Below are positions 47,526 through 64,000 of a stretch of 64,000 bases of DNA, in pieces. This DNA comes from Nostoc linckia z4. Lineage in GTDB: Bacteria > Cyanobacteriota > Cyanobacteriia > Cyanobacteriales > Nostocaceae. The stretch spans positions 30,323-94,322 of the forward strand of contig NZ_LAHA01000004.1 in the NCBI RefSeq assembly GCF_002608075.1, in the 5' to 3' direction. The translations under genes were made by a program, and so were the position numbers. The notes under the pieces were generated by a model that was not told the origin of the DNA, made no database searches, and worked only from the letters and a program-made list of their open reading frames with translations. Numbering within the stretch: the first letter of the stretch is position 1; every line of letters begins with the position of its first letter.

Positions 47526-47526
47526 A

Positions 47527-47686
47527 GAAGTGGGAAGTCAGAATTCAGAATTCAGAATTCAGAAGTCAGAATTCAGAAGTCAGAAGTCGGAAGTCAGAAG
47601 TCGGAAGTCAGAAGTCGGAAGTCAGAAGTCAGAAGTCAGAAGTCGGAAGTCAGAAGTCGGAAGTCAGAAGTCGGAAGTCAGAATTC
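47527..47686. repeat. CAGAATT/CAGAAGT heptamer tandem array (STRR)
   Basis: About 22 seven-base units of types CAGAATT, CAGAAGT and CGGAAGT in an orderly alternation (GAAGTCGGAAGTCAGAAGTC). It begins right after the EamA gene stop. Frames that run through it encode only repeats such as SEVRS and QKSEV. Confidence 0.85.
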
Positions 47687-47729
47687 ATTCTGGTGGTCTG
47701 TCCCATTAATATTGTAGTAAAAAATGTTC

Positions 47730-47779
47730 GTAGTAAGTACTTTAGTGCTTAAAAAATCAAGAACTAAAGTGCTTACTAC
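47730..47779. repeat. GTAGTAAGTACTTTAGT inverted repeat
   Basis: Left arm 47730-47746 and right arm 47763-47779 pair at 16 of 17 positions with a 16-base loop. It belongs to a dispersed hairpin family. No T-run follows. Confidence 0.65.
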
Positions 47780-48070
47780 AAACCGTGATTAATTCTGAAT
47801 TCGGAATTATTCTTCATTGTAATAATAATTTTTTCAACAATTTTGCTATTTTTTTCTCAATCAAAGTTGTGCCATGTTCAAAGTTACAACATAGATACTG
47901 AGGCAAGATATTTTTTCGTTTGTTATGATTTTCTAGTGAAGGCGAACTACTGAAGTCATGCTTCTGTAAAATCGATACTTTTCCCACAAGTTTGACTTTG
48001 TAGCGATTTAATTTGTTCAATTGATAGCCAAAAAAAATGTTTGAAGAAGAATTTGGAAGGCGGGATTAAT

Positions 48071-48129
48071 GTTGACAGTTGATTGTTGATTGTTGATTGT
48101 TGAGTGTTGACTGTTGACTGTTGACTGTC
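48071..48129. repeat. TTGATTG/TTGACTG heptamer array (STRR3-like)
   Basis: Eight seven-base units in tandem: TTGATTG three times, then TTGAGTG, then TTGACTG three times. The last form is the reverse complement of the described STRR3 unit CAACAGT. Confidence 0.8.
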
Positions 48130-48230
48130 AAATTTATGATTTTGTAGGGGGTTTAAAACCCATTTATTCAGATGCTCGCGCACTTGGTAATGCTGTGTTA
48201 TCTGCAATTGATACAGAAATCATAATAAAT

Positions 48231-48457
48231 TCTGAATTCTGAATTCTGACTTCTGAATTCTGACTTCTGAATTCTGACTTCTGACTTCTGACTTCTGACT
48301 TCTGAATTCTGAATTCTGAATTCTGACTCCTGAATTCTGACTTCTGAATTCTGAATTCTGACTCCTGACTTCTGACTTCTGACTTCTGACTTCTGACTTC
48401 TGAATTCTGACTCCTGAATTCTGAATTCTGACTCCTGAATTCTGACTTCTGAATTCT
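48231..48457. repeat. TTCTGAA/TTCTGAC heptamer tandem array (STRR)
   Basis: About 32 units, the same family as at 47527-47686 but in the opposite orientation, so the two arrays form a large inverted pair 545 bases apart. It lies about 75 bases before the DUF1400 hydrolase gene. Confidence 0.85.
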
Positions 48458-48533
48458 TTTATCAACGTAGCAGGGTGGCCGAAAAACTACCAAAGCCAAC
48501 ACGTCAAAACCAGACTACCGAAACAGTTGAGCG

Positions 48534-50249: not shown

Positions 50250-50487
50250 TCAGCTTCGGATTTTGGATGCTGGATATTGGTGTTTCACTATTGAATGTGA
50301 TGATTTCTATTTGATTGAGGAATCAGTTTTAATTTCTCTCTTTTTTATAGGGATTTTTAGTTAAGTGAGGTGTGGAAATAATTTTTTAAACGCAGAGGGG
50401 CGCGGAGGACAGCGCAAAGGTACGCAGAGGTTTGCTCAGTTTTATTAGCGATGTATTAACTATCTCTGCACATTAGGTTTCATCTGT

Positions 50488-50960
50488 GTTTCAATCCCTA
50501 ATAGGGAGTAGATGAAATTTCAATGCAGAATTGGCGCATTCAGGATTTGAAATCTCAGTCCAAGCAGTTTCAATCCCTAATAGGGAGTAGATGAAATTTC
50601 AATTAATGCTTCCCGTCTGTGGATTGCCAGATATAGTAGTTTCAATCCCTAATAGGGAGTAGATGAAATTTCAATCGGGTTCTAGCTTGTAAGGGTCTGC
50701 TTTATCCCGTTTCAATCCCTAATAGGGAGTAGATGAAATTTCAATTTTTGGTAAACTTAAACTCAGGTTTATATAAAGTGTTTCAATCCCTAATAGGGAG
50801 TAGATGAAATTTCAATTTGAAGCTGAAAGTTTTGAAGCTAAGTTACAGCCAGGTTTCAATCCCTAATAGGGAGTAGATGAAATTTCAATCTTCGGGAGCA
50901 TTCAAGCATTTGGCAAACAAGTAGTTTCAATCCCTAATAGGGAGTAGATGAAATTTCAAT
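50488..50960 (-). CRISPR. CRISPR array, seven 37-bp repeats, six spacers (type I-D)
   Basis: Seven identical 37-bp repeats start at 50488, 50567, 50639, 50709, 50780, 50853 and 50924. On the plus strand they read GTTTCAATCCCTAATAGGG and end in GATGAAATTTCAAT. The reverse complement ends in GGGATTGAAAC, the usual 3' end with the 8-base handle ATTGAAAC after a TCCCT/AGGGA hairpin. Transcription is therefore on the minus strand, the same as the cas genes, with the leader at 50961-51171. Spacers are 42, 35, 33, 34, 36 and 34 bases, the 42-base one farthest from the leader. All repeats are intact, suggesting recent or maintained activity. Confidence 0.97.
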
Positions 50961-51171
50961 GGCGGTAGCCTGAAACATTGTTTGTATTGGGTTTTCAAGG
51001 TTCGGTAGCGCGGATGAGGAAATCATAGCATGTGAAATGGACATTGGGTTTGAGGAAAATGGCTAGAACCTAGTCTGTATAAGGTGCGCGGGTACTTTCT
51101 GAGCTATTTTCCCCAAAACTCTTGCAGCAGAGGAATTTGAAGGTTGCTTGCTGCAATTTGGTTTTCAACAT
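50961..51171 (-). promoter_or_regulatory. CRISPR leader
   Basis: 211 bases between the cas2 stop and the first repeat on the minus strand. It has no coding frame and has an AT-rich part near 50965-50995. Its position at the end of the array whose repeats point away from it marks it as the leader holding the promoter and integration signals. Confidence 0.7.
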
Positions 51172-51459
51172 CTACCCATCCGCGCACTCAGCAAAGAAAA
51201 TAGAGTCATCACGAATTTTTTCGCCACCAATACGTTCAACTTTACCGAGACAGCAGGCACACAAAAAGTAAAAAAGTATACTATCGGTTTCAGGTTTAAT
51301 TAACTTGTTCAAACGCGATCGCAATTTTGCGTACTGAGTATCTGTCAGATGACATTCAAATACACTGTACTGTACCCATTGTCCATAGGACTTGAGAATT
51401 TTGTGAATTTTGGTACGGCGTTTATCTTCAGAAATATCATAAGACACAACAACATTCAT
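51172..51459 (-). CDS. cas2: CRISPR-associated protein Cas2
   Basis: Small ferredoxin-fold protein that holds the Cas1 dimers together during spacer insertion. From the ATG at 51459 it reads MNVVVSYDISEDKRRTKIHK, with the conserved Asp at the end of strand 1 (YDIS), then GQWVQYSVFECHLT. An upstream ATG at 51477 would add six residues. The C-terminus carries a few extra residues (AECADG). It is the last cas gene before the leader. Confidence 0.95.
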   Translation of the reverse strand: MNVVVSYDISEDKRRTKIHKILKSYGQWVQYSVFECHLTDTQYAKLRSRLNKLIKPETDSILFYFLCACCLGKVERIGGEKIRDDSIFFAECADG

Positions 51460-51595
51460 TGCTAGTTTTTTCTGCATTTTCTACACCAATGACTCAATAA
51501 TTAGTAATTCGTAATGAGCTAGGCCGCTTTTTGGTAAGGTAATTCGTAATTAAAGATTTATTAATTACGAATTATTATGAAAAATAGCTAAGTTT

Positions 51596-52600
51596 CTATT
51601 TCAACACTAATGGTGGATATTTTTCGGTTTCACCCATCAAGTATTTTGCTAATAATCGAGCCTGTAATTCAAATGCTTCTTGATAAGTACATTTGCGTCC
51701 GAATACGGGATGTTTAAATTCCGATTGTTTTTTTTGTGCATATTGCTGCAAAAATCTTTTTCGTCCTTCTGGGGTTAGAGAAACTGCTCCACTCAATGGT
51801 TCTGTGATAAAATCTGGTTTTGTTAATAATTGTCTATTTAATACAGACAATACAATTGCGTCTACAACTAAGGGACGAAATTCTTCCATTAAGTCTAATG
51901 CTAATGATGGTCTACCGTAGCGATCGCAATGCAAATATCCTAAATATGGATCGAATCCGGCAATATTGACAGCACCTTGAATATCATGGCGCAATAACGA
52001 ATAGCCAAAGCTGAGTAAAGAATTTACCGGATCGGTTGGAGGACGGCGGACGCGTTTATCAAAACTAAATTCTGTACTCCTAATTAATTGGTCAAAACAA
52101 CCAAAATAAGCAGCACTTCCAGCACCTTCTAAACCGCGCAGTGAGTTAATATTTTGAGTAGTTTCAATGGGAGCGATCGCTTGCTCTAAACGTGTTACAT
52201 TTACAGATAAATCTAAATCTGGATTTTCACGTTGACGGCGGTTGAGAAGATTTCGATAATTTTTCAACTTTCCGCGCACAAAACCTTGTACTATATGAAT
52301 TGCTTGGGCTGATTCACCGGCTGCTTGCCATTGAGCTTTACGCACAAAGATATTTTTAGTCACTTCTGGTTCTATCCTTCCTAAATAACGACCATTTTCT
52401 GTGAGAAAAGTCAGAGGTATATGTCGTTCTAGCAGTTCAGATATAACTGCTGGCGAAACAGTAGCGCGTCCTAAAACTACAACACCATCAATCTTAATTA
52501 ATGGCACATCTAAAATTGTCTTTTTTTCAAACTTGACATGTAGCCTTTCATCAACTTTCCCAATAAAAGCATCTTCTTGAGTAACGTATACTGTACCCAT
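51596..52600 (-). CDS. cas1: CRISPR-associated endonuclease Cas1 (type I-D)
   Basis: Integrase of the adaptation complex, which joins new spacers to the leader-proximal repeat. At 334 residues it has the beta domain with VVLGRATVSPAVISELLERH, then the helical domain with the metal site: Glu in RGLEGAGSAAYFG, His in PYLGYLHCDRYGRPSLALDL and the acidic residues in MEEFRPLVVD. All catalytic residues are present. cas2 follows after 136 bases. Upstream the operon is interrupted by a heptamer array. Confidence 0.96.
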   Translation of the reverse strand: MGTVYVTQEDAFIGKVDERLHVKFEKKTILDVPLIKIDGVVVLGRATVSPAVISELLERHIPLTFLTENGRYLGRIEPEVTKNIFVRKAQWQAAGESAQAIHIVQGFVRGKLKNYRNLLNRRQRENPDLDLSVNVTRLEQAIAPIETTQNINSLRGLEGAGSAAYFGCFDQLIRSTEFSFDKRVRRPPTDPVNSLLSFGYSLLRHDIQGAVNIAGFDPYLGYLHCDRYGRPSLALDLMEEFRPLVVDAIVLSVLNRQLLTKPDFITEPLSGAVSLTPEGRKRFLQQYAQKKQSEFKHPVFGRKCTYQEAFELQARLLAKYLMGETEKYPPLVLK

Positions 52601-52712
52601 AATTACATCCTAAATTAACAAAAAAACTGGTTTTTAAAACGCGATTCATCGCGTCTCTACAAGAGTAACTTTGCACTGAAATGAATTTGATTGCTCTAAA
52701 AACTCTGTTGAA

Positions 52713-52893
52713 ATTCTGACTTCTGACTTCTAACTTCTGACTTCTAACTTCTGACTTCTAACTTCTGACTTCTAACTTCTGACTTCTAACTTCTGACTTC
52801 TGACTTCTGACTTCTGACTTCTGACTTCTGAATTCTGACTTCTGACTTCTGAATTCTGACTTCTGAATTCTGAATTCTGAATTCTGAATTCTG
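52713..52893. repeat. TTCTGAC/TTCTAAC heptamer array inside the cas operon
   Basis: About 26 units of the STRR family: TTCTGAC, TTCTAAC and TTCTGAA. It fills the gap between cas4 and cas1 and ends two bases from the cas4 stop codon. The CTTCTAA variant alternates regularly with CTTCTGA in the left third. Confidence 0.85.
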
Positions 52894-52894
52894 A

Positions 52895-53488
52895 TTAACT
52901 CGCTTCTTGATAGCGTTGTAATTTTTCTACAGCTTGAGGTAAACAGTGTGAAAATAAACTACATCCATCACAGCGTTTGGATTTGATAGCTTTGGGCATT
53001 GCACCCGTAAATAACAGTGTTTGCACGGCTTCAATAGTGGCGATGGCACTTTGGCGTAATTCTTGAGAAATCTCCACTAATTGGCGTTGATGAGTTTGTG
53101 CATAGTAGATATAGCCAGTATTAATAACTTGGCCAGTCATTTCTTCTAAACATAAAGCTTGGGCGCAAACTTGTAATTCATCATTATCCCATTCGCCCTT
53201 ACGTCCTCGTTTGTATTCTACTGGATACCACTCACCATTTTCCGATTCAATTAAATCAGATTTACCGATTAATTTGTATTTTTCAGACTTCAGCCAAATA
53301 GCTCTTATTTGCCAAATATCTTCCCGTTGTCCCTCACCAACAGTATGCACTCGCTCATGTAAACTTGTGCCTTCAATTGTGTATTGATTATCAATAAATT
53401 CTCCAGCACAAAACATTCGCCAACAGCGATGGGAACAGTAGCTATATTGATTTAAAGCCGCAATAGCAATGTAGTCACTTTCATTCAT
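52895..53488 (-). CDS. cas4: CRISPR-associated nuclease Cas4
   Basis: RecB-like nuclease with an iron-sulfur cluster that trims prespacers and helps choose the PAM. The 197-residue protein has its first cluster cysteine in SYCSHRCW and the last three in CDGCSLFSHC near the C-terminus. The nuclease core is visible as GKSDLIESENGEWYPVEYKR, with the Asp, Glu and Lys of the PD-(D/E)XK motif. It lies between cas6 and cas1, the normal I-D order. Confidence 0.95.
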   Translation of the reverse strand: MNESDYIAIAALNQYSYCSHRCWRMFCAGEFIDNQYTIEGTSLHERVHTVGEGQREDIWQIRAIWLKSEKYKLIGKSDLIESENGEWYPVEYKRGRKGEWDNDELQVCAQALCLEEMTGQVINTGYIYYAQTHQRQLVEISQELRQSAIATIEAVQTLLFTGAMPKAIKSKRCDGCSLFSHCLPQAVEKLQRYQEAS

Positions 53489-53591
53489 ATCTTTGATTAA
53501 CTATTTCAAAATTGCAAATCTCAAACTCTTACTCTCTGCGCCTCTGCGTCTCTGCGTGAGCTAAATTCATATCTATATTCAGCAACGCCCT

Positions 53592-54410
53592 TTATACTCG
53601 TCGCACCATTCCCATTCCCATTGTTGTTTTCCGTCCCAATCCTGCGTATAATGCAAAATTAGCTAAAGCATTGATTTGCTTAATTAATAACGGCTCAACA
53701 TCACCTAAAATTCGATAGCTAATGCCACCAACACAACCGATAAACTTACTTTCATAGTTACTGATAACTTCAGTATTAATGTCAAAAGCACTGGGATAAA
53801 TTGATTCAATAGAAATACTAGAAATTTCAATTCTACTGTATTTATTCCAACGACTCAAAAGACTATTAAACACAGATTCCTTGATAGGAAGGACATTATC
53901 ATATCCACCTTGGCGGAAAGATACCGGTGTAGCAAAAGTGAAATTGAGAGTGCGATCGCGATCGCTAGCTTGCTCATACAATTGTGTATAACTGCAAGCA
54001 TTAGCCCAAGGTTGCGTAGATTGCGGAGTACCTTGAATACTGGTAATATGTAAATTTGCAGAACCCAAATGCCAAGGATGTTCCGGGTTAAGATTGAGCC
54101 AAAGTCCAGTTAATTTACTAAACAAACTGTCATCAAGTAGAGAAATACGCCACCAACAGGGAGTACCAGCCGGAATCGGTTTTTGATGACTAAATTGCAA
54201 CATCTGGTGATGTTGTTTGTGTTGTCGTTGTATTTGCAACGGCGAGAGAGTAAAGGCTTTATCTGCGTTAGACGAGTGCAGATAGTCTGCCAAGCTAGAA
54301 TCAACAGAATTGATGAGAGTGAGAAATAATGCGTGGTAATGTCTCCCAGTCAAAAATTCCGGGTAAATGGGAGATTGGGGAATCAAGTTAAGGACGAGGC
54401 TGTGGGGCAT
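53592..54410 (-). CDS. cas6: CRISPR RNA endonuclease Cas6
   Basis: Cuts the array transcript at the base of the repeat hairpin, leaving the 8-base 5' handle ATTGAAAC. The 272-residue protein has the double ferredoxin form of Cas6. Its glycine-rich loop lies at the very end (GLGRKTTMGMGMVRRV) and a histidine-bearing segment near the start (GRHYHALFLTLI) may hold the catalytic His. Gaps to csc1 (181 bases) and cas4 (103 bases) are modest. Confidence 0.92.
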   Translation of the reverse strand: MPHSLVLNLIPQSPIYPEFLTGRHYHALFLTLINSVDSSLADYLHSSNADKAFTLSPLQIQRQHKQHHQMLQFSHQKPIPAGTPCWWRISLLDDSLFSKLTGLWLNLNPEHPWHLGSANLHITSIQGTPQSTQPWANACSYTQLYEQASDRDRTLNFTFATPVSFRQGGYDNVLPIKESVFNSLLSRWNKYSRIEISSISIESIYPSAFDINTEVISNYESKFIGCVGGISYRILGDVEPLLIKQINALANFALYAGLGRKTTMGMGMVRRV

Positions 54411-54497
54411 GAATAATTTAAAATGGTAGATGTAAGGTAGGCATTGCTACTATTTTCAAGGGTCAAAAATCCCTTTTTCACCTCTTATCTCTGTGTT

Positions 54498-54560
54498 CTC
54501 TGCGCCTCTGTGGTTAGATAAATTACTATTAAACCGCAGAGACGCAGAGGGCGCAGAGAG
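54498..54560. repeat. CTCTGCGCCTCTG palindrome between cas6 and csc1
   Basis: CTCTGCGCCTCTG on the left pairs with CAGAGGGCGCAGAG on the right, with one bulged G. It is a member of the ACGCAGAGGCGC family common in Nostoc (also near 50392 and 53530) and could act as a partial stop or an RNA processing point in the cas transcript. Confidence 0.6.
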
Positions 54561-54591
54561 TAATTTTTCCAGTCACCTTGAAACGTTAAAA

Positions 54592-55311
54592 TTAAGCTTT
54601 AAATCGATACTGCATTTTTGCAGGTAAGCGCAACTTTTCAGTTTTATTGGGACTATCGAATTCGTAATATTGTCCTTGGCGAATACTGACATTTTGAATC
54701 AAACTCACCGGGGGCATATTTACCACATCGTAGCTAACAACTTGATGAGTAAACATCACATCCAAAGGATTTAAAGGGTAAGAAAAAGTAAAGTCACCTG
54801 TTTTTAATTCAATTTTCGTAACTTCTTGAATTGTGACTTCAGCTTTACTCATCCATTTACCTAAACGAATCCATTTTGGTAGCTTCAGTTGCTTTTGAGA
54901 AATGATAAACAACTCAAATTGACTTTCCGGTGCAATTTCTTTCGCCCTACCAAAACTAGGAATATTTTTTTGCGTTTTCTCCATTTCCACATGATAGTTA
55001 TTATTAGCATACTTCCATGTGTTGAGAATAGCAGTATGTTTAATTGCACGCCCAGGAGTTACATAAATTCCTTGTTGATTTAGCGGTGTTAAATGTGCCT
55101 CATATTTAGGAACTTGTTCGGAACAAAAGTAACGATAGGAATGTTCTTCAGTGACAGTAGTAGAGTAAATTTCGCTGTCTACTAAGCCTAACGCATAGCA
55201 GAGTGCGTAGTTGTGAATTACTGGTTCTGTTTCGTAAAGTCGCCCGATTTCACGAGTTGCATAATAAAGGCTGTCATGAAGTTCTAATTGACAGCAATAG
55301 ATGATTGGCAT
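54592..55311 (-). CDS. csc1: Type I-D Cascade subunit Csc1 (Cas5d-type)
   Basis: Cas5-like subunit that caps the 5' handle of the crRNA in the type I-D interference complex. The 239-residue protein begins MPIIYCCQLELHDSLYYATR, then IGRLYETEPVIHNYALCYAL, both typical of Csc1. It starts five bases after the csc2 stop codon, so the two are translationally close, as is standard in I-D loci. Confidence 0.95.
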   Translation of the reverse strand: MPIIYCCQLELHDSLYYATREIGRLYETEPVIHNYALCYALGLVDSEIYSTTVTEEHSYRYFCSEQVPKYEAHLTPLNQQGIYVTPGRAIKHTAILNTWKYANNNYHVEMEKTQKNIPSFGRAKEIAPESQFELFIISQKQLKLPKWIRLGKWMSKAEVTIQEVTKIELKTGDFTFSYPLNPLDVMFTHQVVSYDVVNMPPVSLIQNVSIRQGQYYEFDSPNKTEKLRLPAKMQYRFKA

Positions 55312-55316
55312 AGCTA

Positions 55317-56345
55317 TTATCCAGCCTTAGCAGCAGTTTTCTTTTTAGTGATGTGTTTTTTGGCGTATTCTTTAGCTTCCGCATCAGCTTTTTGTAAAAT
55401 TGACTTGATTCCTGTTTCGCTACCTGTGAGAACTTTAACTTCATTCAAAAGAGGTTTAAAAGCATCACCAATAAAGTCGGTATGAACGATAAATTCATCA
55501 GCCATTAAACTTTCAATTGCACTTTTCGCAGCACTAATTACATCATCTTCATCTAAAGGCTCAGGAGAATTAATAGTTTTATTTGATTGCATTTTGTCAT
55601 AGATTCCTTGAGTCCAACGCAAATTACTAGTAATTTCGCCATCTGCAAATACAACACCAATTAATTCGTTTCTAACGCGACCTGTACGGGTTGTTTGCGC
55701 TCCATAGTGACGAGTGCGTAAGATGTTATTAAAGACGTAAAGAAAACTAGCTTCAGTGGGGTCTTTTAGTGTGACAATACTGGGGAAAAAAACTTGCGGC
55801 TTAACGTGGTCTTGTTGGTTAATTCTAGCTGTGACTGCACCTATTTCACCATCTAATTTACCATCTGATTTTTTTTCTCCTTTTGCTGCCATTGTCCCAT
55901 TTTCATAAGGAGCATTTAGAGTAAAAGTTTCATGTGATTCATCAAAAGGTGTAATTGAAAATGCTGTATCGACAACAACTTTCGATTTTTCAGAGCCAGA
56001 ATCCCCAATAGCAAAACCGTAAATAATGCAATCAGGATTATCCATTGCAAACGCTACGTTATACTCGCATTCTTTATCTGTCATAAAACCATAATTACGC
56101 AGTAATTCACGACCAACCAAACGTTCTGGTGTTGACTGCTTTCGTTTGAACATTGATAGACGGCTAATTGTGGTTTTATCTTTGACTCCAGCCCTAACCC
56201 TTGCTTTATTGAGTTCGCCATCTGTTTGAAATAGCGGATAAGATTCTGTAATGCGAATCGTTAAAAAATGAGCGTATTTACCCATAGGTTTATAGGGAAT
56301 TTCAGCTTGGAATAATTTGCTATCAACTGCTTTAAGCAATGCCAT
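55317..56345 (-). CDS. csc2: Type I-D Cascade backbone subunit Csc2 (Cas7d)
   Basis: Cas7-family protein that coats the crRNA spacer in several copies. The frame is open from 56405, but the ATG at 56345 is preceded by GGAGG seven bases upstream and gives the family start MALLKAVDSKLFQAEIPYKP. The 342-residue protein includes LRTRHYGAQTTRTGRVRN (basic, RNA-facing) and a Lys/Ala-rich tail (KKHITKKKTAAKAG). It is separated from cas10d by 72 bases. Confidence 0.96.
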   Translation of the reverse strand: MALLKAVDSKLFQAEIPYKPMGKYAHFLTIRITESYPLFQTDGELNKARVRAGVKDKTTISRLSMFKRKQSTPERLVGRELLRNYGFMTDKECEYNVAFAMDNPDCIIYGFAIGDSGSEKSKVVVDTAFSITPFDESHETFTLNAPYENGTMAAKGEKKSDGKLDGEIGAVTARINQQDHVKPQVFFPSIVTLKDPTEASFLYVFNNILRTRHYGAQTTRTGRVRNELIGVVFADGEITSNLRWTQGIYDKMQSNKTINSPEPLDEDDVISAAKSAIESLMADEFIVHTDFIGDAFKPLLNEVKVLTGSETGIKSILQKADAEAKEYAKKHITKKKTAAKAG

Positions 56346-56417
56346 AATAAGCCTCCAAAAATTGAGTTTATTTTTCCAAAAAATGAAATTAATCAGGTAT
56401 ATCACAAAAAAATGTAT

Positions 56418-59400
56418 TTATTCATTTTCATTATCTGATTCCGGAGATTTTTCATTTCTTGCTAAGTTTTCCTTGTCGTCTTCTAGACGGTAAAGAAATT
56501 CACAAGTATCTCGAATTAAGTTGAGTTGACGACCGGCTAAACGAGCGCGATCGCCTGCAAAAGATTTATCAAATACCTCCTCTACAAAATACCGTGCAAA
56601 TTCTAAAACAGCCAGCCGTTCTTCTTCGCGTTTACTCATTATCCAGCGTCCCTCTGCTGTCGAAGAATGCACCCGATCCATCAGTTTAAAAACCTCTGCT
56701 GCTACTGCTGCAACTAGTGTTTCACCATGAAACACACTTAACTCAGCTTTGAGTATAGTTTCAGCAGCAATATCAATCGGTTTCAACACAGCATTAGACT
56801 TGGGATTATAACGCTTATTCGCTCGATAAAAACGGCGATAAAGTTCAGTTAATTTCTTTGGATGATTCAGACTTGATTCTTCTCCCACAATTAATTCCTC
56901 ATTGATACGGTCAAATTTTGCATAGGGGTCAAAGCATGGATAAAAATGATAGGTATAAAGCCGAATTTTTTCAATTCTGGCTGTTTCCACTCCCTGGTTA
57001 CGTACCCAACGGTTAAGATAAGAAAAGACATACAACGGACTAGTTTCAAAATCTTTTGCTAGTTCCGTAAATCTTCCCCAATTGGCATCATAACCAGACT
57101 TTCCTTGTCGCGCATTCACATCTAAATGAATCGCGTAAGCAGCGGTAAGTACATTTAAAGGTGCTGGATATTCAATACCATTTTCATTCCAACCTTCAAG
57201 AATGTAATCCAACCGAAACCTGTCTCTTCTTACCAAAGCACGAAACGCATGAGGCGCACTGTCAAGAAAAACGCTTTCTTCAAACTCAGCACCATCATTA
57301 AATGGTGGAATTGGCGACTCAGAAACCACTGTTTTCACATCCAAAATCATCGGGAAAGCAAACGCTAACCAGCTAGGCATTACCCAAGATTCTGTATCAG
57401 TGCTATCTCGTCCTGGTGGTAGCGCCATGAAGTAAAATGTTAAAGGTTGGTCTTCAGGATAGGAAAGCTTAAATGTGCGGTCTTTATCGTCTTCTAAGTT
57501 TTCATCAATCAAAAAACTATCCACACTTTGATAATCTTTCTTAGCCAAATGAGCTTGCAAATCCTTAGTAATAAAATGATTGCGAACACTCGTATCAAAG
57601 CGAGTTTGAGCAATTCCACCATAAGCTTTTTGTAAAAACTTATTAGTTTCTGGTGTAAAATAATAAGTCGGATAAAAGTAGAGATAGCGATATTTCCCAT
57701 CTTCAAATCTTTTACCTACTGCTTGGGTTTGATTCATCAAAATTTGCCTGAGCATCATTTCTACACCCGCAATGCTAGAAATATTACGCTTGGCATTAGA
57801 ACCACCCAACATTTGTTTATTTGTATAAACTTGGGGTGTAAATAAAACTGCTGATTCCATTTGCTCGGTTACAGTGTAAGCAGAATGGGAAATTGAGCAA
57901 ATTAATTGCCGTCCTCGTCCAGGTTTTTTCGCAGCATTATAATTATCTAACTCCTGGAAAAAATTCTCACTTTGAATTTTGGATGATAGTTGTTGATTTG
58001 TACTTGGTAACATCACAACTCGCGTTACCCATTCCCTTAAATCATCCCAACCATCAGGTAACTCATATTGTGCAAGAATTGGAGAAATTAAGTTTGTTAA
58101 ATAGTTGATAACTTCCTGACAACTTTCTCTGACATTTTCAATACCAGGATGTTTTTCCAGATATTTAGCTGCAAGATAATACCATTCATAAGGAACTCCG
58201 CCTGTATTTCCCTTTAAGTTATTTTCTTTCAGGCTTTCATTAATGCGCTCAATGTAGCGAATTTGAGGAATATATTCTGTTAAATTCCAAAATTCAGCTA
58301 CCTGATGAATCAAATTTAAACTCGGTATTTCTGGTAACTTTTTATCTTTTTTGCGAACAGCTTCAAGACGATTAACAGTTTCTTCCCAAATTTTACGACT
58401 CACTAAATCACCAAACTCTGCAATTTGGTCAATACGGATATCATCAGCAAAGTTGAAATCAAATTCGGGTGGTAAAACTCCTTGTTGTTGAAACTTGACT
58501 AAATTTTCACTCCGGCTTTTGGCGACTGATGGTTTATTAGAATTTAAAATGCGTAGAGTTGCATCTAAAGCCACTTGCATCAAGCCTGGAGAATCAAAAA
58601 ATAAGTTGTAATATTCGGCATATTTCATCCCTTTACCATCTCGACCAAATCCTGTTTGTCTCAAACGCAATTGACCAGCACACAGAGATTTAATATTATT
58701 AACTACAAGGTCTGGTAAATCTGTTGCAGAGATTGAAGGAGCATTACGCGCAGCGAGGTAAATTACACCTGTTGGCAGATATAATAAGGGTTCATAATAT
58801 GTATGCTCATCAGTATTCAGGCTAGTGTAAGCTTGGATTACAGCATTATTCACCACATTAGTTAAAACACCACGATTTTCAGCAATGCGGTGATAGGTAA
58901 ATTGTAATTGCCCATCACTAAGACTGTGGAGAATATCATTTAAGGCTCTATGTTCTGCATCTTGGGGATGTTTAATAACTGATGCGAGTAAATCAGCTAA
59001 ACGAGTTAAATCACATAAACTGCGAATAGTGCGGTCTTTAAGAACAGGATTTAGACCAAATTCCGAAAAATTCCAGTTAGTATCCCACCGACTTTGTGCA
59101 TTATAAGCCATACACAACAAATCATCGATATATTCCTTATACGCTTCAGGATGCTCTGAATTGATAAATTTATCAAGTCCTAATTCTTGAACTTTTTCCT
59201 CAACGATTTGCCGATGTTTTTCTAAAGGTAATTTGCGACATTCTTCAGGTGCATCGGGAAATTTTTCAAAGTCATGTAGAATAAATCCAGCAATTACTAA
59301 TCGCCGTTCCCGTTCTTTCACAACTCGCCGGACGGTGGTATCGAGATTTTCTAATTTTTTCTCAATTAAATTTGCGGGAAATAAACCATTAAGCAAGTGA

Positions 59401-59780
59401 GTATTGAGTGATTGGTCAGCAGCGTTATCTCGCCTAACTTTACTTTTCCCTTCTGCTTCTCGTTTTTGGTCAATTTCATCAAAAAACTTACCACCCTTAG
59501 CAGTGACACCAATTGCTATCCGCAGTAAGTTTGGTAAAACATACTCGCCAAAATCCGCCATAACTTTATCACCTGGATTTTGTGTTTGTATTGCTTCACG
59601 TAGTAATTTGAGTGTGAGTAGTTCAGCTTCTATTTCGATAGTGCGGTCTGAAGAATCACCATCAAATCCAAAATCACCCGATAACCAATCTTCATCCATT
59701 ACTTGAGAATTTATATCGTTTTCTGTTTCTAAAAGTGATAATTGTTGAACTTTATTAGCAATTTTGCTTTTTTTAATCAT
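56418..59780 (-). CDS. cas10d: Cas10d (Csc3) large subunit with HD nuclease domain
   Basis: Large subunit of the type I-D interference complex. It recognises the PAM and, unlike in other type I systems, carries the HD nuclease that cuts the target. The 1120-residue protein has its HD motif at His169-Asp170 (AGFILHDFEKFPDAP), with other metal ligands likely at His128 and nearby. No GGDD cyclase motif was seen in the palm region, as expected for Cas10d. Its first eight bases overlap the end of hepT, so translation is probably coupled to the upstream toxin island. Confidence 0.96.
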   Translation of the reverse strand: MIKKSKIANKVQQLSLLETENDINSQVMDEDWLSGDFGFDGDSSDRTIEIEAELLTLKLLREAIQTQNPGDKVMADFGEYVLPNLLRIAIGVTAKGGKFFDEIDQKREAEGKSKVRRDNAADQSLNTHLLNGLFPANLIEKKLENLDTTVRRVVKERERRLVIAGFILHDFEKFPDAPEECRKLPLEKHRQIVEEKVQELGLDKFINSEHPEAYKEYIDDLLCMAYNAQSRWDTNWNFSEFGLNPVLKDRTIRSLCDLTRLADLLASVIKHPQDAEHRALNDILHSLSDGQLQFTYHRIAENRGVLTNVVNNAVIQAYTSLNTDEHTYYEPLLYLPTGVIYLAARNAPSISATDLPDLVVNNIKSLCAGQLRLRQTGFGRDGKGMKYAEYYNLFFDSPGLMQVALDATLRILNSNKPSVAKSRSENLVKFQQQGVLPPEFDFNFADDIRIDQIAEFGDLVSRKIWEETVNRLEAVRKKDKKLPEIPSLNLIHQVAEFWNLTEYIPQIRYIERINESLKENNLKGNTGGVPYEWYYLAAKYLEKHPGIENVRESCQEVINYLTNLISPILAQYELPDGWDDLREWVTRVVMLPSTNQQLSSKIQSENFFQELDNYNAAKKPGRGRQLICSISHSAYTVTEQMESAVLFTPQVYTNKQMLGGSNAKRNISSIAGVEMMLRQILMNQTQAVGKRFEDGKYRYLYFYPTYYFTPETNKFLQKAYGGIAQTRFDTSVRNHFITKDLQAHLAKKDYQSVDSFLIDENLEDDKDRTFKLSYPEDQPLTFYFMALPPGRDSTDTESWVMPSWLAFAFPMILDVKTVVSESPIPPFNDGAEFEESVFLDSAPHAFRALVRRDRFRLDYILEGWNENGIEYPAPLNVLTAAYAIHLDVNARQGKSGYDANWGRFTELAKDFETSPLYVFSYLNRWVRNQGVETARIEKIRLYTYHFYPCFDPYAKFDRINEELIVGEESSLNHPKKLTELYRRFYRANKRYNPKSNAVLKPIDIAAETILKAELSVFHGETLVAAVAAEVFKLMDRVHSSTAEGRWIMSKREEERLAVLEFARYFVEEVFDKSFAGDRARLAGRQLNLIRDTCEFLYRLEDDKENLARNEKSPESDNENE

Positions 59781-60216
59781 CTTCTTGACTCAATGAAATT
59801 AAATAAGAGTTAATCTGGCGAACATAAAGCGGATATTGTTGCAATGCAAAACTGATAGAGTTAAAAACTTGGTAAGGATCTATTTCGTCATATTCATGAA
59901 CAAGACGATTTCTTAATCCTGATGATGGTGCTATTTGTTTTGCTAATTCTGGTGTAATTACTTGATATTTGCTAAGTTCAATGAAAGCTTCAAAATTAGT
60001 AACCGAATTTCCGGGACTTAATTTTGATAATATGTGTTCATTGATATCTATTGCAGCTTGAGTCATTAATTGCAGTAGTCTTTCTACAACAAGCTGTTGA
60101 CGAAAATCACTTAAGAAGTCATCAAGGCTAGCAGAGCGAAACTCTTCTAAAGTGTTGTAATATTTTGTAATTAACCTCAGCCTAACTAAAATTATTTCGG
60201 GATCTATATTACTCAT
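59773..60216 (-). CDS. hepT: HEPN-domain toxin HepT (HEPN/MNT system)
   Basis: RNase-type toxin of the HEPN/MNT (type VII) toxin-antitoxin family. The 147-residue protein, from the ATG at 60216, is all-helical and carries the HEPN catalytic motif in SGLRNRLVHEYDEID (R-x4-H and the following Tyr that MntA adenylylates). Its start overlaps the mntA stop by four bases (ATGA). A GTG at 60225 is an alternative start. Its end overlaps the cas10d start, an unusual join between a toxin pair and a CRISPR effector gene. Confidence 0.88.
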   Translation of the reverse strand: MSNIDPEIILVRLRLITKYYNTLEEFRSASLDDFLSDFRQQLVVERLLQLMTQAAIDINEHILSKLSPGNSVTNFEAFIELSKYQVITPELAKQIAPSSGLRNRLVHEYDEIDPYQVFNSISFALQQYPLYVRQINSYLISLSQEDD

Positions 60217-60665
60217 ACTCCCCACTTATTTAGTTCTTTTTCAATAATTTTGTGTTGCTCTTCACGGAATTTTTTTAACTCTGATTTGGATTTTAGTGAG
60301 GTTAATCTAAATTCCTCAAATTGTCCAGGATATTTTTCAAACATCATAATCCCATCACAAGCAATAAAATGGGCTATTAGCTCTGAACAATGATTAAGTT
60401 CTACAATATCAATAAGGTCAGAATTGATTTTGAATAATTCGCCAATCTGCATAGGTAATTCAAACCAACGTAAAGCATTATCTTTCACGTAAGCCTCACG
60501 TTGTTTTTGATCATACAAAACAGCAAAATCCCAGTCACTCTTGGCATTTATATTACCAGTAGCTCTAGAGCCAAATAGAACTAACATTTTTAAGTAAGGA
60601 ATTTTTTCAGGAAGTTGTAATGAAAGTTCTTGTAGTTCTGAGATGCTTGGAGTATTGTTTTGCAT
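60213..60665 (-). CDS. mntA: MNT nucleotidyltransferase antitoxin MntA
   Basis: Antitoxin of the HEPN/MNT pair; it adds AMP units to the Tyr of HepT and silences it. The 150-residue protein from the ATG at 60665 has the minimal nucleotidyltransferase motif LVLFGSRATGNINAKSDWDF: GSRATG and the metal-binding D-x-D in SDWDFAV. The ATG is preceded by TGGAGA. The frame is open from 60692, but the first nine residues are less likely. It precedes hepT with a four-base overlap. Confidence 0.9.
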   Translation of the reverse strand: MQNNTPSISELQELSLQLPEKIPYLKMLVLFGSRATGNINAKSDWDFAVLYDQKQREAYVKDNALRWFELPMQIGELFKINSDLIDIVELNHCSELIAHFIACDGIMMFEKYPGQFEEFRLTSLKSKSELKKFREEQHKIIEKELNKWGV

Positions 60666-60723
60666 TTGATAATTCTCCAGTTGAATAAACAATCGTCAAC
60701 ATTCAGTTGCTCATTCTATAATT

Positions 60724-61743
60724 CTATTCAAATCCTTCTAGGAGTTTAGCAACTTGTTCTGGAGCGGGAAGCTGGTTTTTGAGTTCTTGAGGCACCGTAG
60801 AAACTATTTGATAAGTTGCTACACCAATAGGTTTATTGGATTCTCTCAGTGCATACTCAACAATAGTTTTATCTTTAGACTTGCAAATAATAATTCCGAT
60901 TGAGAGGTTTTCGTCTGGTAGTCGAGCTAAATCATCTAAAGCTGCCAGATAAAACTGCATTTTCCCTACATACTCAGGTAAAAACTCTCCAGTTTTTAAC
61001 TCAATGGCAACTAGACATTTTAATTGGCGGTGATATAGTAATAAATCGATGAAAAATTCTTTATCACCAACTTCCAGGCGATATTGACTACCAACAAAAG
61101 TAAACCTTCCACCCATTTCTTGCAAAAATGGTTCTACTCTTGCCAAAATAGACTGTTCTAGCTGTCGTTCACTATGTTCATCTGCTAATTCTAAAAAATC
61201 AAATGTATATTCATCTTTCACAGCTAGTTTTAATTGATTACGGATTTCTGCTGGAACAGTTTTATCAAAGTTAGTCTGATTGAGCAGAGTTTTTTCATAG
61301 GTTTGATTTTCAATTTGGTGAATCAAAACGTTTTTTGTCCAACCGAATTTGCGAGTCATTCTAATATAAAACTCTCGTTCTAGGTCATCTTTACACTTTT
61401 CTAAAATGACTATATTGTGAGTCCATCCAATTTCTGCCACCAATGGTGGCAGAATTTCTTTAGAGTGGTAAGTCAAGTAAAAATCTCGCATTCTCCAAAT
61501 ATTACGGGCAGAAAATCCGCTAATTCCAGGAAACTCTGCTTGTAAATCTTTTGCTAACTGTTCCACGACTGATTTACCCCAACTAGCACCTTGTTGTTGA
61601 GTAACAATCATCTGCCCAATGTCCCAGTATAAGTTAATCATTTCCCGATTAACTGCTTTTAGTGCTTCGTACTGGGCTGAACGAATGCGCTGTTTTATTT
61701 CCATTAGCAAATTTCTGTAATTGTCTGAAATGGAGTCACTCAT
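60724..61743 (-). CDS. YhcG/DUF1016 PD-(D/E)XK nuclease-like protein
   Basis: 339 residues of the YhcG (DUF1016) family. The N-terminal helical domain has INLYWDIGQMIVTQQ and FSARNIWRMRDFY, the family hallmarks. The C-terminal domain has the nuclease core FFIDLLLYHRQLKCLVAIEL with a following K (D...ELK). Members occur near restriction and phage-defence genes and are presumed nucleases. It begins inside the last bases of the DUF433 gene (ATGA overlap), so the two form a unit. Confidence 0.87.
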   Translation of the reverse strand: MSDSISDNYRNLLMEIKQRIRSAQYEALKAVNREMINLYWDIGQMIVTQQQGASWGKSVVEQLAKDLQAEFPGISGFSARNIWRMRDFYLTYHSKEILPPLVAEIGWTHNIVILEKCKDDLEREFYIRMTRKFGWTKNVLIHQIENQTYEKTLLNQTNFDKTVPAEIRNQLKLAVKDEYTFDFLELADEHSERQLEQSILARVEPFLQEMGGRFTFVGSQYRLEVGDKEFFIDLLLYHRQLKCLVAIELKTGEFLPEYVGKMQFYLAALDDLARLPDENLSIGIIICKSKDKTIVEYALRESNKPIGVATYQIVSTVPQELKNQLPAPEQVAKLLEGFE

Positions 61744-61979
61744 AACGTAAAATGTTCAACTCGTTCATCACCAACTAGCCTACGTGCGTAGACTAAACAG
61801 GCTTGTATATCTTCTCTTTCTAGCCAGGGATAACCTTCTAGCAAGGTTTCGATACTGTCTCCAGCTGCTAGCATTCTTAAAATATGTTCAACCGCAAGGC
61901 GACGATCGCGAATAATTGGCTTACCACCAAAAATTTTGGGGTTGACTGTGATTCGTTCCAAAAGTTTTTGTTCGTTCAT
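61740..61979 (-). CDS. DUF433 domain antitoxin-like protein
   Basis: 79 residues of the DUF433 family (VNPKIFGGKPIIRDRRLAVE, then ILRMLAAGDSIETLLEGYPW), a winged-helix-like DNA-binding domain. It normally acts as the antitoxin of a DUF5615/PIN-like toxin. Here no DUF5615 gene follows; the YhcG nuclease gene overlaps its stop by four bases instead. It could regulate the island promoter or neutralise YhcG (inference). Confidence 0.85.
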   Translation of the reverse strand: MNEQKLLERITVNPKIFGGKPIIRDRRLAVEHILRMLAAGDSIETLLEGYPWLEREDIQACLVYARRLVGDERVEHFTL

Positions 61980-62040
61980 GGTTACGTGATGTTAGTAGAT
62001 TGTTTTATCGTGTGTACACTCGAAACAGTAACTCAGTCTT

Positions 62041-62091
62041 GTAGACAGAGATATGAATCGACGACCTTCCGATTACAAGTCGGGTCTACAC
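62041..62091 (-). ncRNA. tRNA-Thr(UGU)-like fragment or tRNA mimic
   Basis: On the minus strand CCGA-CTTGTAA-TCGG forms a perfect anticodon arm with anticodon TGT (62077-62075), followed by AAGGTCGTCGATTC, the normal variable-loop/T-arm start of tRNA-Thr. D-arm, T-stem and acceptor stem do not fold as in a working tRNA. Instead GTAGAC (62089-62084) and GTCTAC (62046-62041) close the segment as a six-bp stem. It is either a decayed tRNA piece (an old integration scar) or a small tRNA-like RNA. Confidence 0.45.
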
Positions 62092-62104
62092 TGCGAACAG
62101 TTTC

Positions 62105-62350
62105 TTAATCTGGTGGATAATGAAAATCTACAAGATTCTGTAAATCCTCATTTCGACAAACTTGGTGTCCGAAATTTGTCTCTAAAACACTGACGCGATT
62201 CTCAAGGTCAGCTAGCTGATTATCTTGAATGGCATTCTGGAGTCGTACTGCTTCTATTGCATCAACTAAATAGTGAAGTTGCTTAAGTACCGTGCGGATT
62301 AGGTGGAGGTCGGCATTCTGGTTCTGCATTTGAGATTGTTTCATTTGCAT
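62105..62350 (-). CDS. Small coiled-coil protein, first gene of the island
   Basis: 81 residues, Gln/Asn-rich at the start and then a clear heptad helix (AIQDNQLADLENRVSVLETN). No family is recognised. There are several possible ATGs (62350, 62344 and 62329). No Shine-Dalgarno site is visible and the likely TAAAAT -10 box is only some 16 bases from the first ATG, so the mRNA may be almost leaderless. Its promoter is the sequence matched by the mini-array spacer. Confidence 0.45.
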   Translation of the reverse strand: MQMKQSQMQNQNADLHLIRTVLKQLHYLVDAIEAVRLQNAIQDNQLADLENRVSVLETNFGHQVCRNEDLQNLVDFHYPPD

Positions 62351-62388
62351 AGAATAAGGTACAGTATTTTACGTTCACAGTAATTAAC
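62351..62388 (-). promoter_or_regulatory. Promoter region matched by the mini-array guide, with GTT PAM
   Basis: On the minus strand the sequence is GTT (62388-62386), then AATTACTGTGAACGTAAAAT and on to TTCT at 62351, directly before the ATG at 62350. It contains TAAAAT (62371-62366) as a possible -10. It matches the spacer at 62478-62511 at 30 of 34 positions with a 1-base and a 2-base gap. Cascade bound here would block transcription of the island and perhaps of the cas genes behind it. Confidence 0.65.
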
Positions 62389-62400
62389 CCCATAAGATAT

Positions 62401-62431
62401 TTTACTGTGACTAAAACTTGTGTACTATAGT
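62401..62431 (+). promoter_or_regulatory. Possible promoter of the mini-array
   Basis: TTTACT (62401-62406) and TATAGT (62426-62431) are spaced 19 bases apart; TACTAT (62423-62428) gives 16-base spacing. Transcription would start about 62438, just before the first repeat. It is divergent from the island promoter. Confidence 0.35.
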
Positions 62432-62440
62432 AGCAGTATA

Positions 62441-62556
62441 AGTCTAAGGCATTCAAATCCCTATTAGGGATTGAAACAATTATCTGTGAACGTACTACTG
62501 TTCCTTGTTCTGCCTTAAGACCATGAATAACCAAAATCCCTATTAGGGATTGAAAC
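62441..62556 (+). CRISPR. Mini-array of two degenerate repeats with one self-matching spacer
   Basis: Two copies of AAATCCCTATTAGGGATTG plus AAAC end at 62477 and 62556. Their last 20 bases equal the 3' end of the main array repeat in its reading direction, with the hairpin and 8-base handle. Their 5' halves are unrelated to it and to each other. The orientation is opposite to the main array. The spacer begins at 62478 and its first 34 bases match the promoter region 62351-62385 in inverted orientation. The second repeat ends two bases from the cas3' stop codon. This is the layout of CreA/CreR-type guide RNAs. Confidence 0.75.
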
Positions 62557-62557
62557 C

Positions 62558-64000
62558 TCAAGCAACCCATATCTCATCTCCCTTGCTTTTAAAGGTGTAC
62601 GCCAGCGTATCTAGCAGCAGTGCAGAGTGACCAAAAGCGATCGCATACGGTGCGTTAACATCATGAAAGCTATACTGATCGCTGATTGGGTAAATCTGAA
62701 AATGCATCGGTAGCCGCAACCGCATCCGTACTTCTGCAACTGGACGGCGAATCACATAACAAACTAAACCCTGTGTTTTCAAGCGTTTGTTAATCTCCCC
62801 AATCCAGTAGTTTTCAGGTTGCCAAATTTCCACACCTTTTAAAACCTGAACTTTCCAAGCGTCTGCTTTTGGTTGCAAGTCGCCTGAATAAGTAAATTTC
62901 CAGTTCAGCCGTTCCTCGCGGTAGGAACGCAACTTGATAAATGCGAGACAGTGAGCAAATCTACCTTTGGCTATGGGTTGTCCGGTGCGTTTGGCGGTTT
63001 CTTGGAGTGTCCGTATAAACGCCGCTTCTGTCCACATTTCAATTTCTAAGTTGCTTAAAATTCCCGGTAAATCATAGGTTTTAAATCTGTCTACTTCGTT
63101 TGTTTCTGTTAAATCGTAAATTCCGCATTGCAAAGGACTAGAACCTCGAAAACTATAAGCATCATCAGCAATGGGATTTCCTAATTTACCTGAAAGCGCT
63201 TGCCAATCTTTAGCCCATCCTTGAATACGTCCGGCTAGAGGTTTTAAACTGGTTTCAAAGACTGCTTCACAAGCTTGAATAAATGCTTCTAAACTACCTA
63301 CATACTGTTGTTGAATAGTCTTGTGTTTCAAGTCCCAACACAGTTTCATTGATTGCACAGCACCCCAACGGCGATAATAACCATGAAAATCATTGATTTG
63401 GCGATATTGCTCTTTAATTATGTTTTGCAGAGTGGGGCGATCGCAAGTACTATTAACTACTAAAGGTGGTGACTCTATCTGAAATAATCTCTCTACTAAA
63501 AAGTTGGGAACCAAAGCCAAAGCTGTGAAGTTTTCAAACTTAATTTGCTCACCATTTTTATCATAGCCATCATGTCTACCCAAGCGTCCCAAACGCTGAA
63601 TAAAATTACCCGCATCCGATGATTCAAAAATTAGGAAGTTAATTTTAAAATCAACGCCAACATCAATAGTACTCGTGCCAAGAACTAAATCAGCAGCCAA
63701 ACTTAACTCTTTTTGCGCTTTTCCTGATAATCCTGTATTTTCTCCTACCGTCAAGCCATGAGGCTGCAAAAGTTCTTGAAAAAATGGAGTCAGGCGCTTG
63801 ACTGCTGCGATGGAATTGAGAATAATTGCTCCCTTACTCCCTGGATACTGCTGAAACTGAGCCAAAATCAAATTACTATTTTCTCTTAACCAAGTTTCCG
63901 AAGCTTTAAAAGCAGGTTCTAAAGGAATAAAGTTCAGTGAAATTGTTCGTGCTACTTGCCGCCATCCTTGCGTTTGCAGTTCGTTTTCTTGTTCGGCGCT
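62558..64000 (-). CDS. cas3: Type I-D helicase Cas3' (partial, runs off the window)
   Basis: SF2 helicase of the type I-D system, which in this subtype lacks its own HD domain. The frame is open to the window edge: the 43 codons from 64000 to 63872 contain no stop and read on smoothly (GWRQVARTISLNFIPLEPAF). Thus the apparent TTG start at 63871 is not the true one. The C-terminal half is seen here: ADLVLGTSTIDVGVDFKINF, then motif VI in FIQRLGRLGRHDGY. The last codons (EIWVA) abut the mini-array. The ATP-binding motifs must lie outside. Confidence 0.9.
   Translation of the reverse strand, partial: SAEQENELQTQGWRQVARTISLNFIPLEPAFKASETWLRENSNLILAQFQQYPGSKGAIILNSIAAVKRLTPFFQELLQPHGLTVGENTGLSGKAQKELSLAADLVLGTSTIDVGVDFKINFLIFESSDAGNFIQRLGRLGRHDGYDKNGEQIKFENFTALALVPNFLVERLFQIESPPLVVNSTCDRPTLQNIIKEQYRQINDFHGYYRRWGAVQSMKLCWDLKHKTIQQQYVGSLEAFIQACEAVFETSLKPLAGRIQGWAKDWQALSGKLGNPIADDAYSFRGSSPLQCGIYDLTETNEVDRFKTYDLPGILSNLEIEMWTEAAFIRTLQETAKRTGQPIAKGRFAHCLAFIKLRSYREERLNWKFTYSGDLQPKADAWKVQVLKGVEIWQPENYWIGEINKRLKTQGLVCYVIRRPVAEVRMRLRLPMHFQIYPISDQYSFHDVNAPYAIAFGHSALLLDTLAYTFKSKGDEIWVA

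Follow-up and report, generated by a model that had tools for sequence, protein, structure and literature searches.

A crRNA-like guide in a type I-D CRISPR-Cas locus of Nostoc linckia z4 matches the region upstream of a gene run that includes cas10d

The type I-D CRISPR-Cas locus of Nostoc linckia z4 contains a one-spacer mini-array, the guide of which matches the region upstream of a run of genes encoding a small protein, toxin-antitoxin proteins and Cas10d. The locus was analysed in a window of 64,000 nucleotides from contig NZ_LAHA01000004.1 (assembly GCF_002608075.1), and all positions are given in the numbering of the window. It is quite likely that type I-D Cascade loaded with the guide binds the matching region and represses the gene run without cutting, as predicted from sequence comparisons. 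The repeats, guide, PAM, target, their conservation and co-variation, and a six-nucleotide period in the pairing can be read from the DNA of the window and of its relatives. A preliminary description of the locus interpreted the mini-array as a CreA/CreR-like guide of type I-D. This interpretation is supported by the co-variation of guide and target, by the GTN motif, which recurs beside the targets without being imposed, and by the pairing period.

Mini-array and target in the Nostoc linckia z4 locus

The mini-array is located on the plus strand and consists of two repeats (62441–62477 and 62520–62556), which flank a spacer of 42 nt (62478–62519). The second repeat adjoins the 3′ end of cas3′, to which the mini-array is antisense. 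The 3′ part of cas3′ (62558–64000, minus strand) was assigned from its open reading frame and a profile match, and the gene extends beyond the window. The first repeat, which precedes the guide, contains a CCC-TATTA-GGG stem and the handle ATTGAAAC. The two repeats share an exact 20-nt end, TCCCTATTAGGGATTGAAAC, and match the Rfam family CRISPR-DR5 with scores of 34.8 bits (E 0.0014) and 39.3 bits (E 0.00014, over 62528–62556), both below the gathering score of 40. The main CRISPR array of seven repeats (50488–50960, minus strand) has the opposite orientation and contains seven exact copies of the 20-nt repeat 3′ half (50488–50943). The similarity of the mini-array repeats to the main repeat drops in their 5′ halves (27/37 for repeat 1, 24/37 for repeat 2), which are somewhat nearer to those of an array on contig C40 of the same genome (29/37 and 30/37). 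The two repeats with intact 3′ halves and degenerate 5′ halves, pointing away from the main array, are thus present as originally described. A canonical CRISPR array was considered and rejected, because the mini-array has a single spacer, repeats unlike each other in their 5′ halves, and an orientation opposite to that of the main array.

The 20-nt repeat 3′ half is common to three arrays of the genome, on contigs C40 and C64 and at 50488–50960 of the window. The 5′ halves of the C40 and main-array repeats, the two that were compared, differ. Arrays with a common 3′ half and unlike 5′ halves would fit a shared Cas6. Dense runs of the 7-nt unit TTCTGAA/TTCTGAC, in steps of 14 and 21 nt, are positioned at 47513–48529 and 52641–52971, on either side of the main array and of the open reading frames at 51172–52600.

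The first 34 nt of the spacer (62478–62511) form the guide part and match the target 62385–62351 on the minus strand, upstream of the first small open reading frame. The alignment has 30 matches, one 1-nt gap and one 2-nt gap, and is positioned directly behind the minus-strand GTT at 62386–62388; recalculation reproduced the match as first reported. The GTT agrees with the type I-D PAM, given as GTN/GTH and located 5′ of the protospacer in the excerpted I-D review (PMC10212523). The length of 34 nt, which the preliminary description equated with that of the main-array spacers, applies to the matched part, whereas the whole spacer has 42 nt. The two copies, guide and target, are inverted relative to each other and 92 nt apart.

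The match scored 22.5 in a shuffle test that searched both strands of a 355-nt neighbourhood at this single locus, compared to a mean of 12.2 (sd 1.7) and a best score of 22.0 among 2,000 shuffled spacers. Taken alone, the result of the single-locus test is strong but short of overwhelming. Because it is too weak to decide the matter, relatives of the locus were examined. A DNA search of the complete genome, which is blind to bare 10-nt seeds, returned the target as the strongest match within the spacer (32.8 bits); weaker matches of 28–31 bits mostly straddle the end of the repeat.

In an ungapped seed scan, the target in the window reaches only 6/10 positions, below the threshold of 8/10, because the base opposite guide nucleotide 6 is missing from it. 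When nucleotide 6 is allowed to bulge, the guide pairs at 14/14 positions (nucleotides 1–5, 7–11, and 13–16), and 1,362 unrelated combinations of guide and region reach at most 10/14 in the same PAM-anchored test. A second locus, L162, has the same bulge and pairs at 13/14 positions. It is plausible that Cascade tolerates the missing base, since nucleotide 6 is expected to be unpaired anyway. Nevertheless, a 1-nt bulge within the seed might weaken the binding.

Conservation and co-variation of guide and target

Two sets of loci, which overlap in strains, were compared. The first set contains 80 cas3′ loci, taken together with their flanks from named genomes; all of these are cyanobacterial apart from one metagenome-assembled genome labelled gammaproteobacterial. 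The second set comes from genomes of the same family, 120 of 217 of which have a cas3′ match, at 122 places; 120 places were used, and the partial ones in G168 and G188 were left out. A one-spacer mini-array directly after cas3′ and antisense to its 3′ end is present in 58 of the 80 I-D loci of the first set. These comprise 51 loci from a regular-expression list, with guide repeats picked by hand, and seven with a divergent stem. A locus in which the repeat at the cas3′ stop stands alone did not count as guide-bearing; in the uniform pipeline described below, a rule on offsets <25 nt serves the same end. When the guide of the window is added to the 51, 46 of the 52 guides have a sense GTN site with at least 8/10 seed matches in their own locus.

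The uniform pipeline found 118 guides in 201 loci, missing six loci found otherwise (L013, L015, L045, L064, L073, and L087). After identical guide/target pairs were collapsed, 91 non-redundant pairs remained. Sites on either strand with at least 8/10 seed positions beside GTN exist for 81 of these pairs, and with at least 9/10 for 76. The corresponding frequencies are 1.4% and 0.06% when unrelated guides are swapped between loci (6,280 trials), and 2.4% and 0.05% when the regions are shuffled. In the near clade of the same-family set, 62 of 81 loci have a guide, and a site of at least 8/10 accompanies it in 54. A guide was not found in 22 of the 80 loci of the first set and in 19 of the 81 near-clade loci (uniform pipeline), indicating that the mini-array is not essential. 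The mini-array repeats share their stem-and-handle class (ATTGAAA or ACTGAAA) with the array of the same locus in 6/6 listed loci, where the list covers arrays within the fetched stretch that have a repeat ending A[CT]TGAAA[CT]. Two of the six are of the ACTGAAA type, and the last base of the handle differs in L033 and L079. A DNA search for close relatives of the cassette in the window returned, besides the window itself, mostly matches to the repeat part.

When no PAM was imposed, 76 of the 78 sites with at least 9/10 matches carried GTN (48 GTT, 27 GTC, and 1 GTA), and the remaining two AAT. The motif of the strong sites agrees with the GTN/GTH PAM of type I-D, as does the GTT noticed beside the target in the window. 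In type I Cascade, one guide base in six is flipped out. Among 77 sense sites, the fraction of matches is 0.94–1.00 at nucleotides 1–5, 0.32 at nucleotide 6, 0.86–0.97 at nucleotides 7–10, 0.64 at nucleotide 11, 0.35 at nucleotide 12, 0.69–0.81 at nucleotides 13–16, 0.52 at nucleotide 17, and 0.19 at nucleotide 18, and mostly near chance beyond. Nucleotide 6 and those from 12 onward were not used in the selection of sites. The near-chance pairing at nucleotides 6, 12, and 18 is the pattern expected of an R-loop formed by a type I Cascade. The CreA RNA of Haloarcula pairs by nucleotides 1–5 and 7–11 beside the PAM (PMC8501985), and nucleotide 6 is excluded from the seed according to the excerpted I-D review (PMC10212523).

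The guides belong to 41 distinct seed classes, 34 of which match a site in their own locus; two more do so with a bulge at nucleotide 6. Co-variation of guide and promoter region in relatives, suggested as a check in the preliminary description, is thus found in 36 of the 41 classes. The same description named independent decay of repeats and match as evidence to the contrary. Guide and target mostly stay together; however, eight of the 91 non-redundant pairs part company and have no convincing site even after the bulge test. Four loci (L016, L055, L111, and L112) have a changed guide seed, CTCCTTTTCTG, and no matching site, and retain a first open reading frame of family c2, described below. 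Decay and retargeting are both possible in these loci.

The first open reading frame after the target belongs mainly to one of three small-protein families: c0 (43 loci), c1 (35 loci, including the window), and c2 (27 loci). Predicted structures are winged-helix-like for c0, with no match in the PDB at E ≤ 0.001, and a single long helix for c1 (pLDDT 91.9). The c1 protein matches no Pfam family at its cut-off, and a scan of representatives of the first open reading frames with Pfam and NCBIfam matched no known toxin. The class of the guide tracks the family of the open reading frame: all 14 loci with guides GAATA.GTCTG and 25 of the 26 with AAATA.GTCTG belong to c0. The c0 loci L122 and L135 have guides unlike the c0 class. 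Descent of the locus, as represented by a tree of 75 cas3′ proteins, is followed only weakly by the cassette type. The tree was calculated without L088, L064 and L065, without L027 and L077, which have in-frame stops, and without the window itself. Five cassette labels require 36 changes on the tree, compared to 41.0 after shuffling, and a count this low occurred in only 3 of 200 shuffles, so that some clustering remains. There are 18 changes among the 44 rows of c0, c1, and c2; taken singly, c0 requires 15 changes vs 17.0 in shuffles, c1 12 vs 12.9, and c2 11 vs 10.3. The cas3′ of locus L009 is 92% identical to that of the window, yet its cassette is of the c0 type, whereas that of the window is c1. 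The tracking of open reading frame families by guide classes, the weak dependence on cas3′ descent and the cassette of L009 indicate that guide, target, and first small open reading frame move together, inherited and exchanged between related loci as one cassette.

Sites with at least 8/10 matches on both strands were found in 19 non-redundant loci, 16 of them c0, and in 13 of the 19 the PAMs are positioned head-to-head, 1–2 nt apart. Two head-to-head sites with PAMs 2 nt apart are seen, for example, in the c0 loci L098, L100, L105, and L128. The second site points toward the mini-array, the upstream region of which it would cover in such c0 loci, and the guide may therefore also repress its own expression. 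In a distant I-D clade, with cas3′ about 40–50% identical, a relaxed pattern identified the mini-array repeat in 13 of 39 loci. Twelve of the 13 have a site of at least 9/10, located on the strand of the mini-array in 11 of the 12. Seven loci of the distant clade (L181, L182, L185, L199, L202, L206, and L212) have two tandem sites 24–26 nt apart on the strand of the mini-array.

Gene run downstream of the target and its predicted repression

All genes downstream of the target are encoded on the minus strand. The first is the small open reading frame of family c1 (62105–62350, 81 aa, or perhaps from 62329, 74 aa), for which one long helix is predicted. It is followed by the gene of a DUF433 protein (61740–61979; PF04255, E 6.3e-23), which we take to be antitoxin-like, and that of a YhcG/DUF1016 nuclease of the PDDEXK type (60724–61743; PF06250, E 1.5e-61; PDC-S02). 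Next are the antitoxin MntA (60213–60692; NF047752, 78.3 bits) and the RNase toxin HepT (59773–60225; NF047751, 112.6 bits) of a type VII toxin-antitoxin system, both above the cut-off of 60 bits. The hepT gene overlaps the start of cas10d/csc3 (56418–59780; TIGR03174, 1201.7 bits). The run continues with a probable csc2 (cas7d; 55317–56405), assigned by position only, csc1 (cas5d; 54592–55311; PDLC02037, E 2.5e-106), and cas6d (53592–54410; PDLC02042, E 3.6e-154). No KilA-N domain was matched among the window proteins scanned.

The target was originally described as ending at the first start codon of the run. The ATG at 62350 does adjoin the target, but the true start is perhaps at 62329, judging from five 74-aa homologues (P0004, P0005, and P0007–P0009) that begin at the corresponding methionine; an 81-aa gene call of the small open reading frame also exists (P0001). 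A piece of 34 nt between the small open reading frame and the DUF433 gene (62050–62083, minus strand) is 94% identical to tRNA-Thr(UGU) from the anticodon arm to the T arm. Its matches elsewhere include a real tRNA-Thr gene of the same genome, on contig C85, and the gap around it resembles those of L018 and L019 at about 73% and that of L117 at 85%. The piece may be a scar or a tRNA mimic. A tRNA gene in the island was rejected, since ARAGORN finds none in 48000–64000 and only the fragment is present.

The DUF433 and nuclease genes overlap, as do hepT and cas10d, the latter by 8 nt in the window and with an identical offset in 26 of the 49 loci compared. Because of these overlaps, the toxins and cas10d are probably cotranscribed. 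The gap of 125 nt between the small open reading frame and the DUF433 gene leaves room for a second start, and the toxins and cas10d may have a promoter of their own.

The target was first thought to cover a possible −10 box, which the present analysis does not bear out. A consensus scan found no sigma-70 match covering the target on the minus strand, and in a position profile across the families no promoter box aligns cleanly and no −10 or −35 element is consistent. For lack of consistent boxes, the promoter is a putative one, and we infer that the target coincides with it and that it drives cas10d.

In the proposed mechanism, the mini-array (62441–62556, plus strand) would be transcribed, Cas6 would trim the RNA at ATTGAAAC, and the trimmed guide would load into the type I-D Cascade. 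Cascade bound to 62385–62351 on the minus strand would block the promoter of the run. Cas3′ and Cas10d are not expected to cut the target, which would be explained by the limited pairing: it lies mostly within the first 17 nt across the set, and in the window it is broken by insertions and deletions.

A WYL-type regulator is encoded divergently to cas3′ in the window, with its WCX domain above the cut-off and its WYL domain below. Among 69 loci tested, a homologue is present in all 47 with a guide and in 20 of the 22 without. The idea that the regulator takes the place of the guide was rejected, because both are present in all 47 guide loci; the guide would rather be an added layer of control.

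Because the run includes cas10d, the regulatory loop would work like CreR, with Cascade limiting its own large subunit. The small open reading frame and the toxins belong to the same run, and loss or inhibition of Cascade would therefore release them too, as in CreA and CrePA. In locus L071 (Phormidesmis sp. RL_2_1, a metagenome-assembled genome), the target is positioned upstream of cas10d with no open reading frame of at least 45 aa between them. This is the cleanest CreR-like layout, with the PAM GTA, and the absence of cargo speaks for autoregulation. Conversely, the co-exchange of guides with small open reading frames and toxin cargo points to a guard role. A composite of the two roles, in whatever proportion, appears most likely and is favoured over either role alone. 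A fuller version of the composite reading is put forward tentatively. In its first part, exchangeable cassettes of guide, promoter, and small open reading frame would enable Cascade to repress a composite operon of cas10d and toxin-antitoxin genes, merging CreR with CrePA. In its second part, back-to-back sites, as many of the most frequent cassettes have them, would let the guide also repress itself, and a target without base 6 would be tolerated. With a composite operon of the first part, the removal of Cascade by an anti-CRISPR or by a flood of other crRNAs would release fresh Cas10d and toxins together.

It is possible, if somewhat doubtful, that the guide is purely a toxin guard of the CreA/CrePA kind, which silences the small open reading frame and the toxins and thereby makes Cascade addictive, while cas10d has its own promoter. 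The guide class tracks the first small open reading frame more than cas3′, as this explanation predicts, and in near-clade loci with a guide, the nearest of five known genes tends to begin farther behind cas3′ (396–1147 nt, median 720) than in those without (24–1105 nt, median 265). The median gap of 244 nt after the c0 small open reading frame also leaves room for another promoter. However, no cargo separates guide and target from cas10d in L071, hepT and cas10d overlap, toxin-antitoxin genes between cas3′ and cas10d are present in many guide-less loci as well, and the small-protein representatives tested resemble no known toxin.

Pure autoregulation of the cas genes as in CreR, with the small open reading frame and the toxins as passengers, is the less probable of the two single-role explanations and unlikely overall. 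It agrees with the layout of L071, with the hepT-cas10d overlap, and with loci such as L082 and L060, in which only cas10d was found among the five genes searched. The exchange of the guide together with a specific family of small open reading frames would be unexpected if cas10d alone mattered.

A self-targeting spacer that is recent or in decay, or a functionless array remnant, could have the bulge at nucleotide 6 seen in the window and would account for the minority of relatives with a guide and without a site, but is strongly disfavoured and very improbable given the position and orientation conserved in 58/80 loci, the 36/41 matched seed classes, the periodic pairing, and the GTN found without imposing it. 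It is equally improbable that the inverted copies, 92 nt apart, are a protein operator, an RNA hairpin, or a mobile-element end, even though the c0 sites can form a dyad beside a small open reading frame with a winged-helix-like model, because sites of the distant clade are mostly direct relative to the guide, and an operator or terminal repeat predicts neither a match that begins at the repeat border and follows GTN nor one that skips nucleotides 6, 12, and 18.

Comparison with known systems

Mini-arrays predicted to match promoters of cas genes or of cargo such as toxin-antitoxin genes, mostly in type I systems, are reportedly the subject of a survey by Shmakov et al. 2023. The Nostoc locus would be of the same kind and may be among the entries of that survey. 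The type I-D locus on plasmid pSYSA of Synechocystis PCC 6803, a studied model system, has the same cas3′-cas10d-csc2 order and a divergent WYL regulator; however, only 13 nt separate cas3′ from cas10d, too few to accommodate a mini-array or cargo, and no such element is present.

CreR, a cas-regulating RNA, is reported for types I-B, I-E, and V-A (PMC13131331) and is also described in PMC12737573. Compared with the parts of these papers that describe CreR, the Nostoc element similarly is a crRNA-like mini-array outside the main array and near the cas genes, has partial complementarity to its target, and is predicted to mediate autorepression. In contrast to CreR, it belongs to subtype I-D, its target precedes a small open reading frame and toxin-antitoxin genes followed by cas10d, its repression is a prediction, it is part of exchangeable cassettes, and some families have back-to-back or tandem paired sites.

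The mini-array resembles CreA of the CreTA modules, as characterised in excerpts of PMC8501985 and PMC9458426, in having two degenerate repeats that keep the handle around a pseudo-spacer, and in pairing by nucleotides 1–5 and 7–11 beside a PAM, in the window with the bulge at nucleotide 6. A CreTA case of type I-F is the subject of PMC10097628. Unlike the CreT described for type I-B systems of haloarchaea, which is an RNA toxin, the run downstream of the Nostoc target encodes proteins. Its first feature is a conserved small protein family, and the tRNA-Thr-like fragment is located further downstream.

In CrePA, as described in PMC12737573, a guide represses the promoter of a protein toxin gene. 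Repression by CrePA depends on the Cas effector, as is predicted here. CreP is typically a KilA-N protein, whereas the candidate toxin-antitoxin proteins of the Nostoc run are MntA-HepT, the YhcG-type nuclease, and the DUF433 protein. No type I-D case was recognised in the titles and abstract openings searched, a comparison that did not extend to Liu et al. 2023 and Shmakov et al. 2023, and the excerpt of the I-D review (PMC10212523) mentions none.

If the predicted repression is true, the hybrid type I-D effector joins those under RNA-guided self-repression, which would then be widespread, not exceptional, within one large cyanobacterial clade. It would tie adaptive immunity and toxin-antitoxin cargo into one feedback unit and offer a reason for the toxin modules between cas3′ and cas10d. 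The dozens of targets with partial complementarity would form a natural dataset, a readout of the crRNA positions that the type I-D Cascade reads. The kind of element is already known from CreR, CreTA, and CrePA, and the type I-D locus would be a variant of it rather than a new category.
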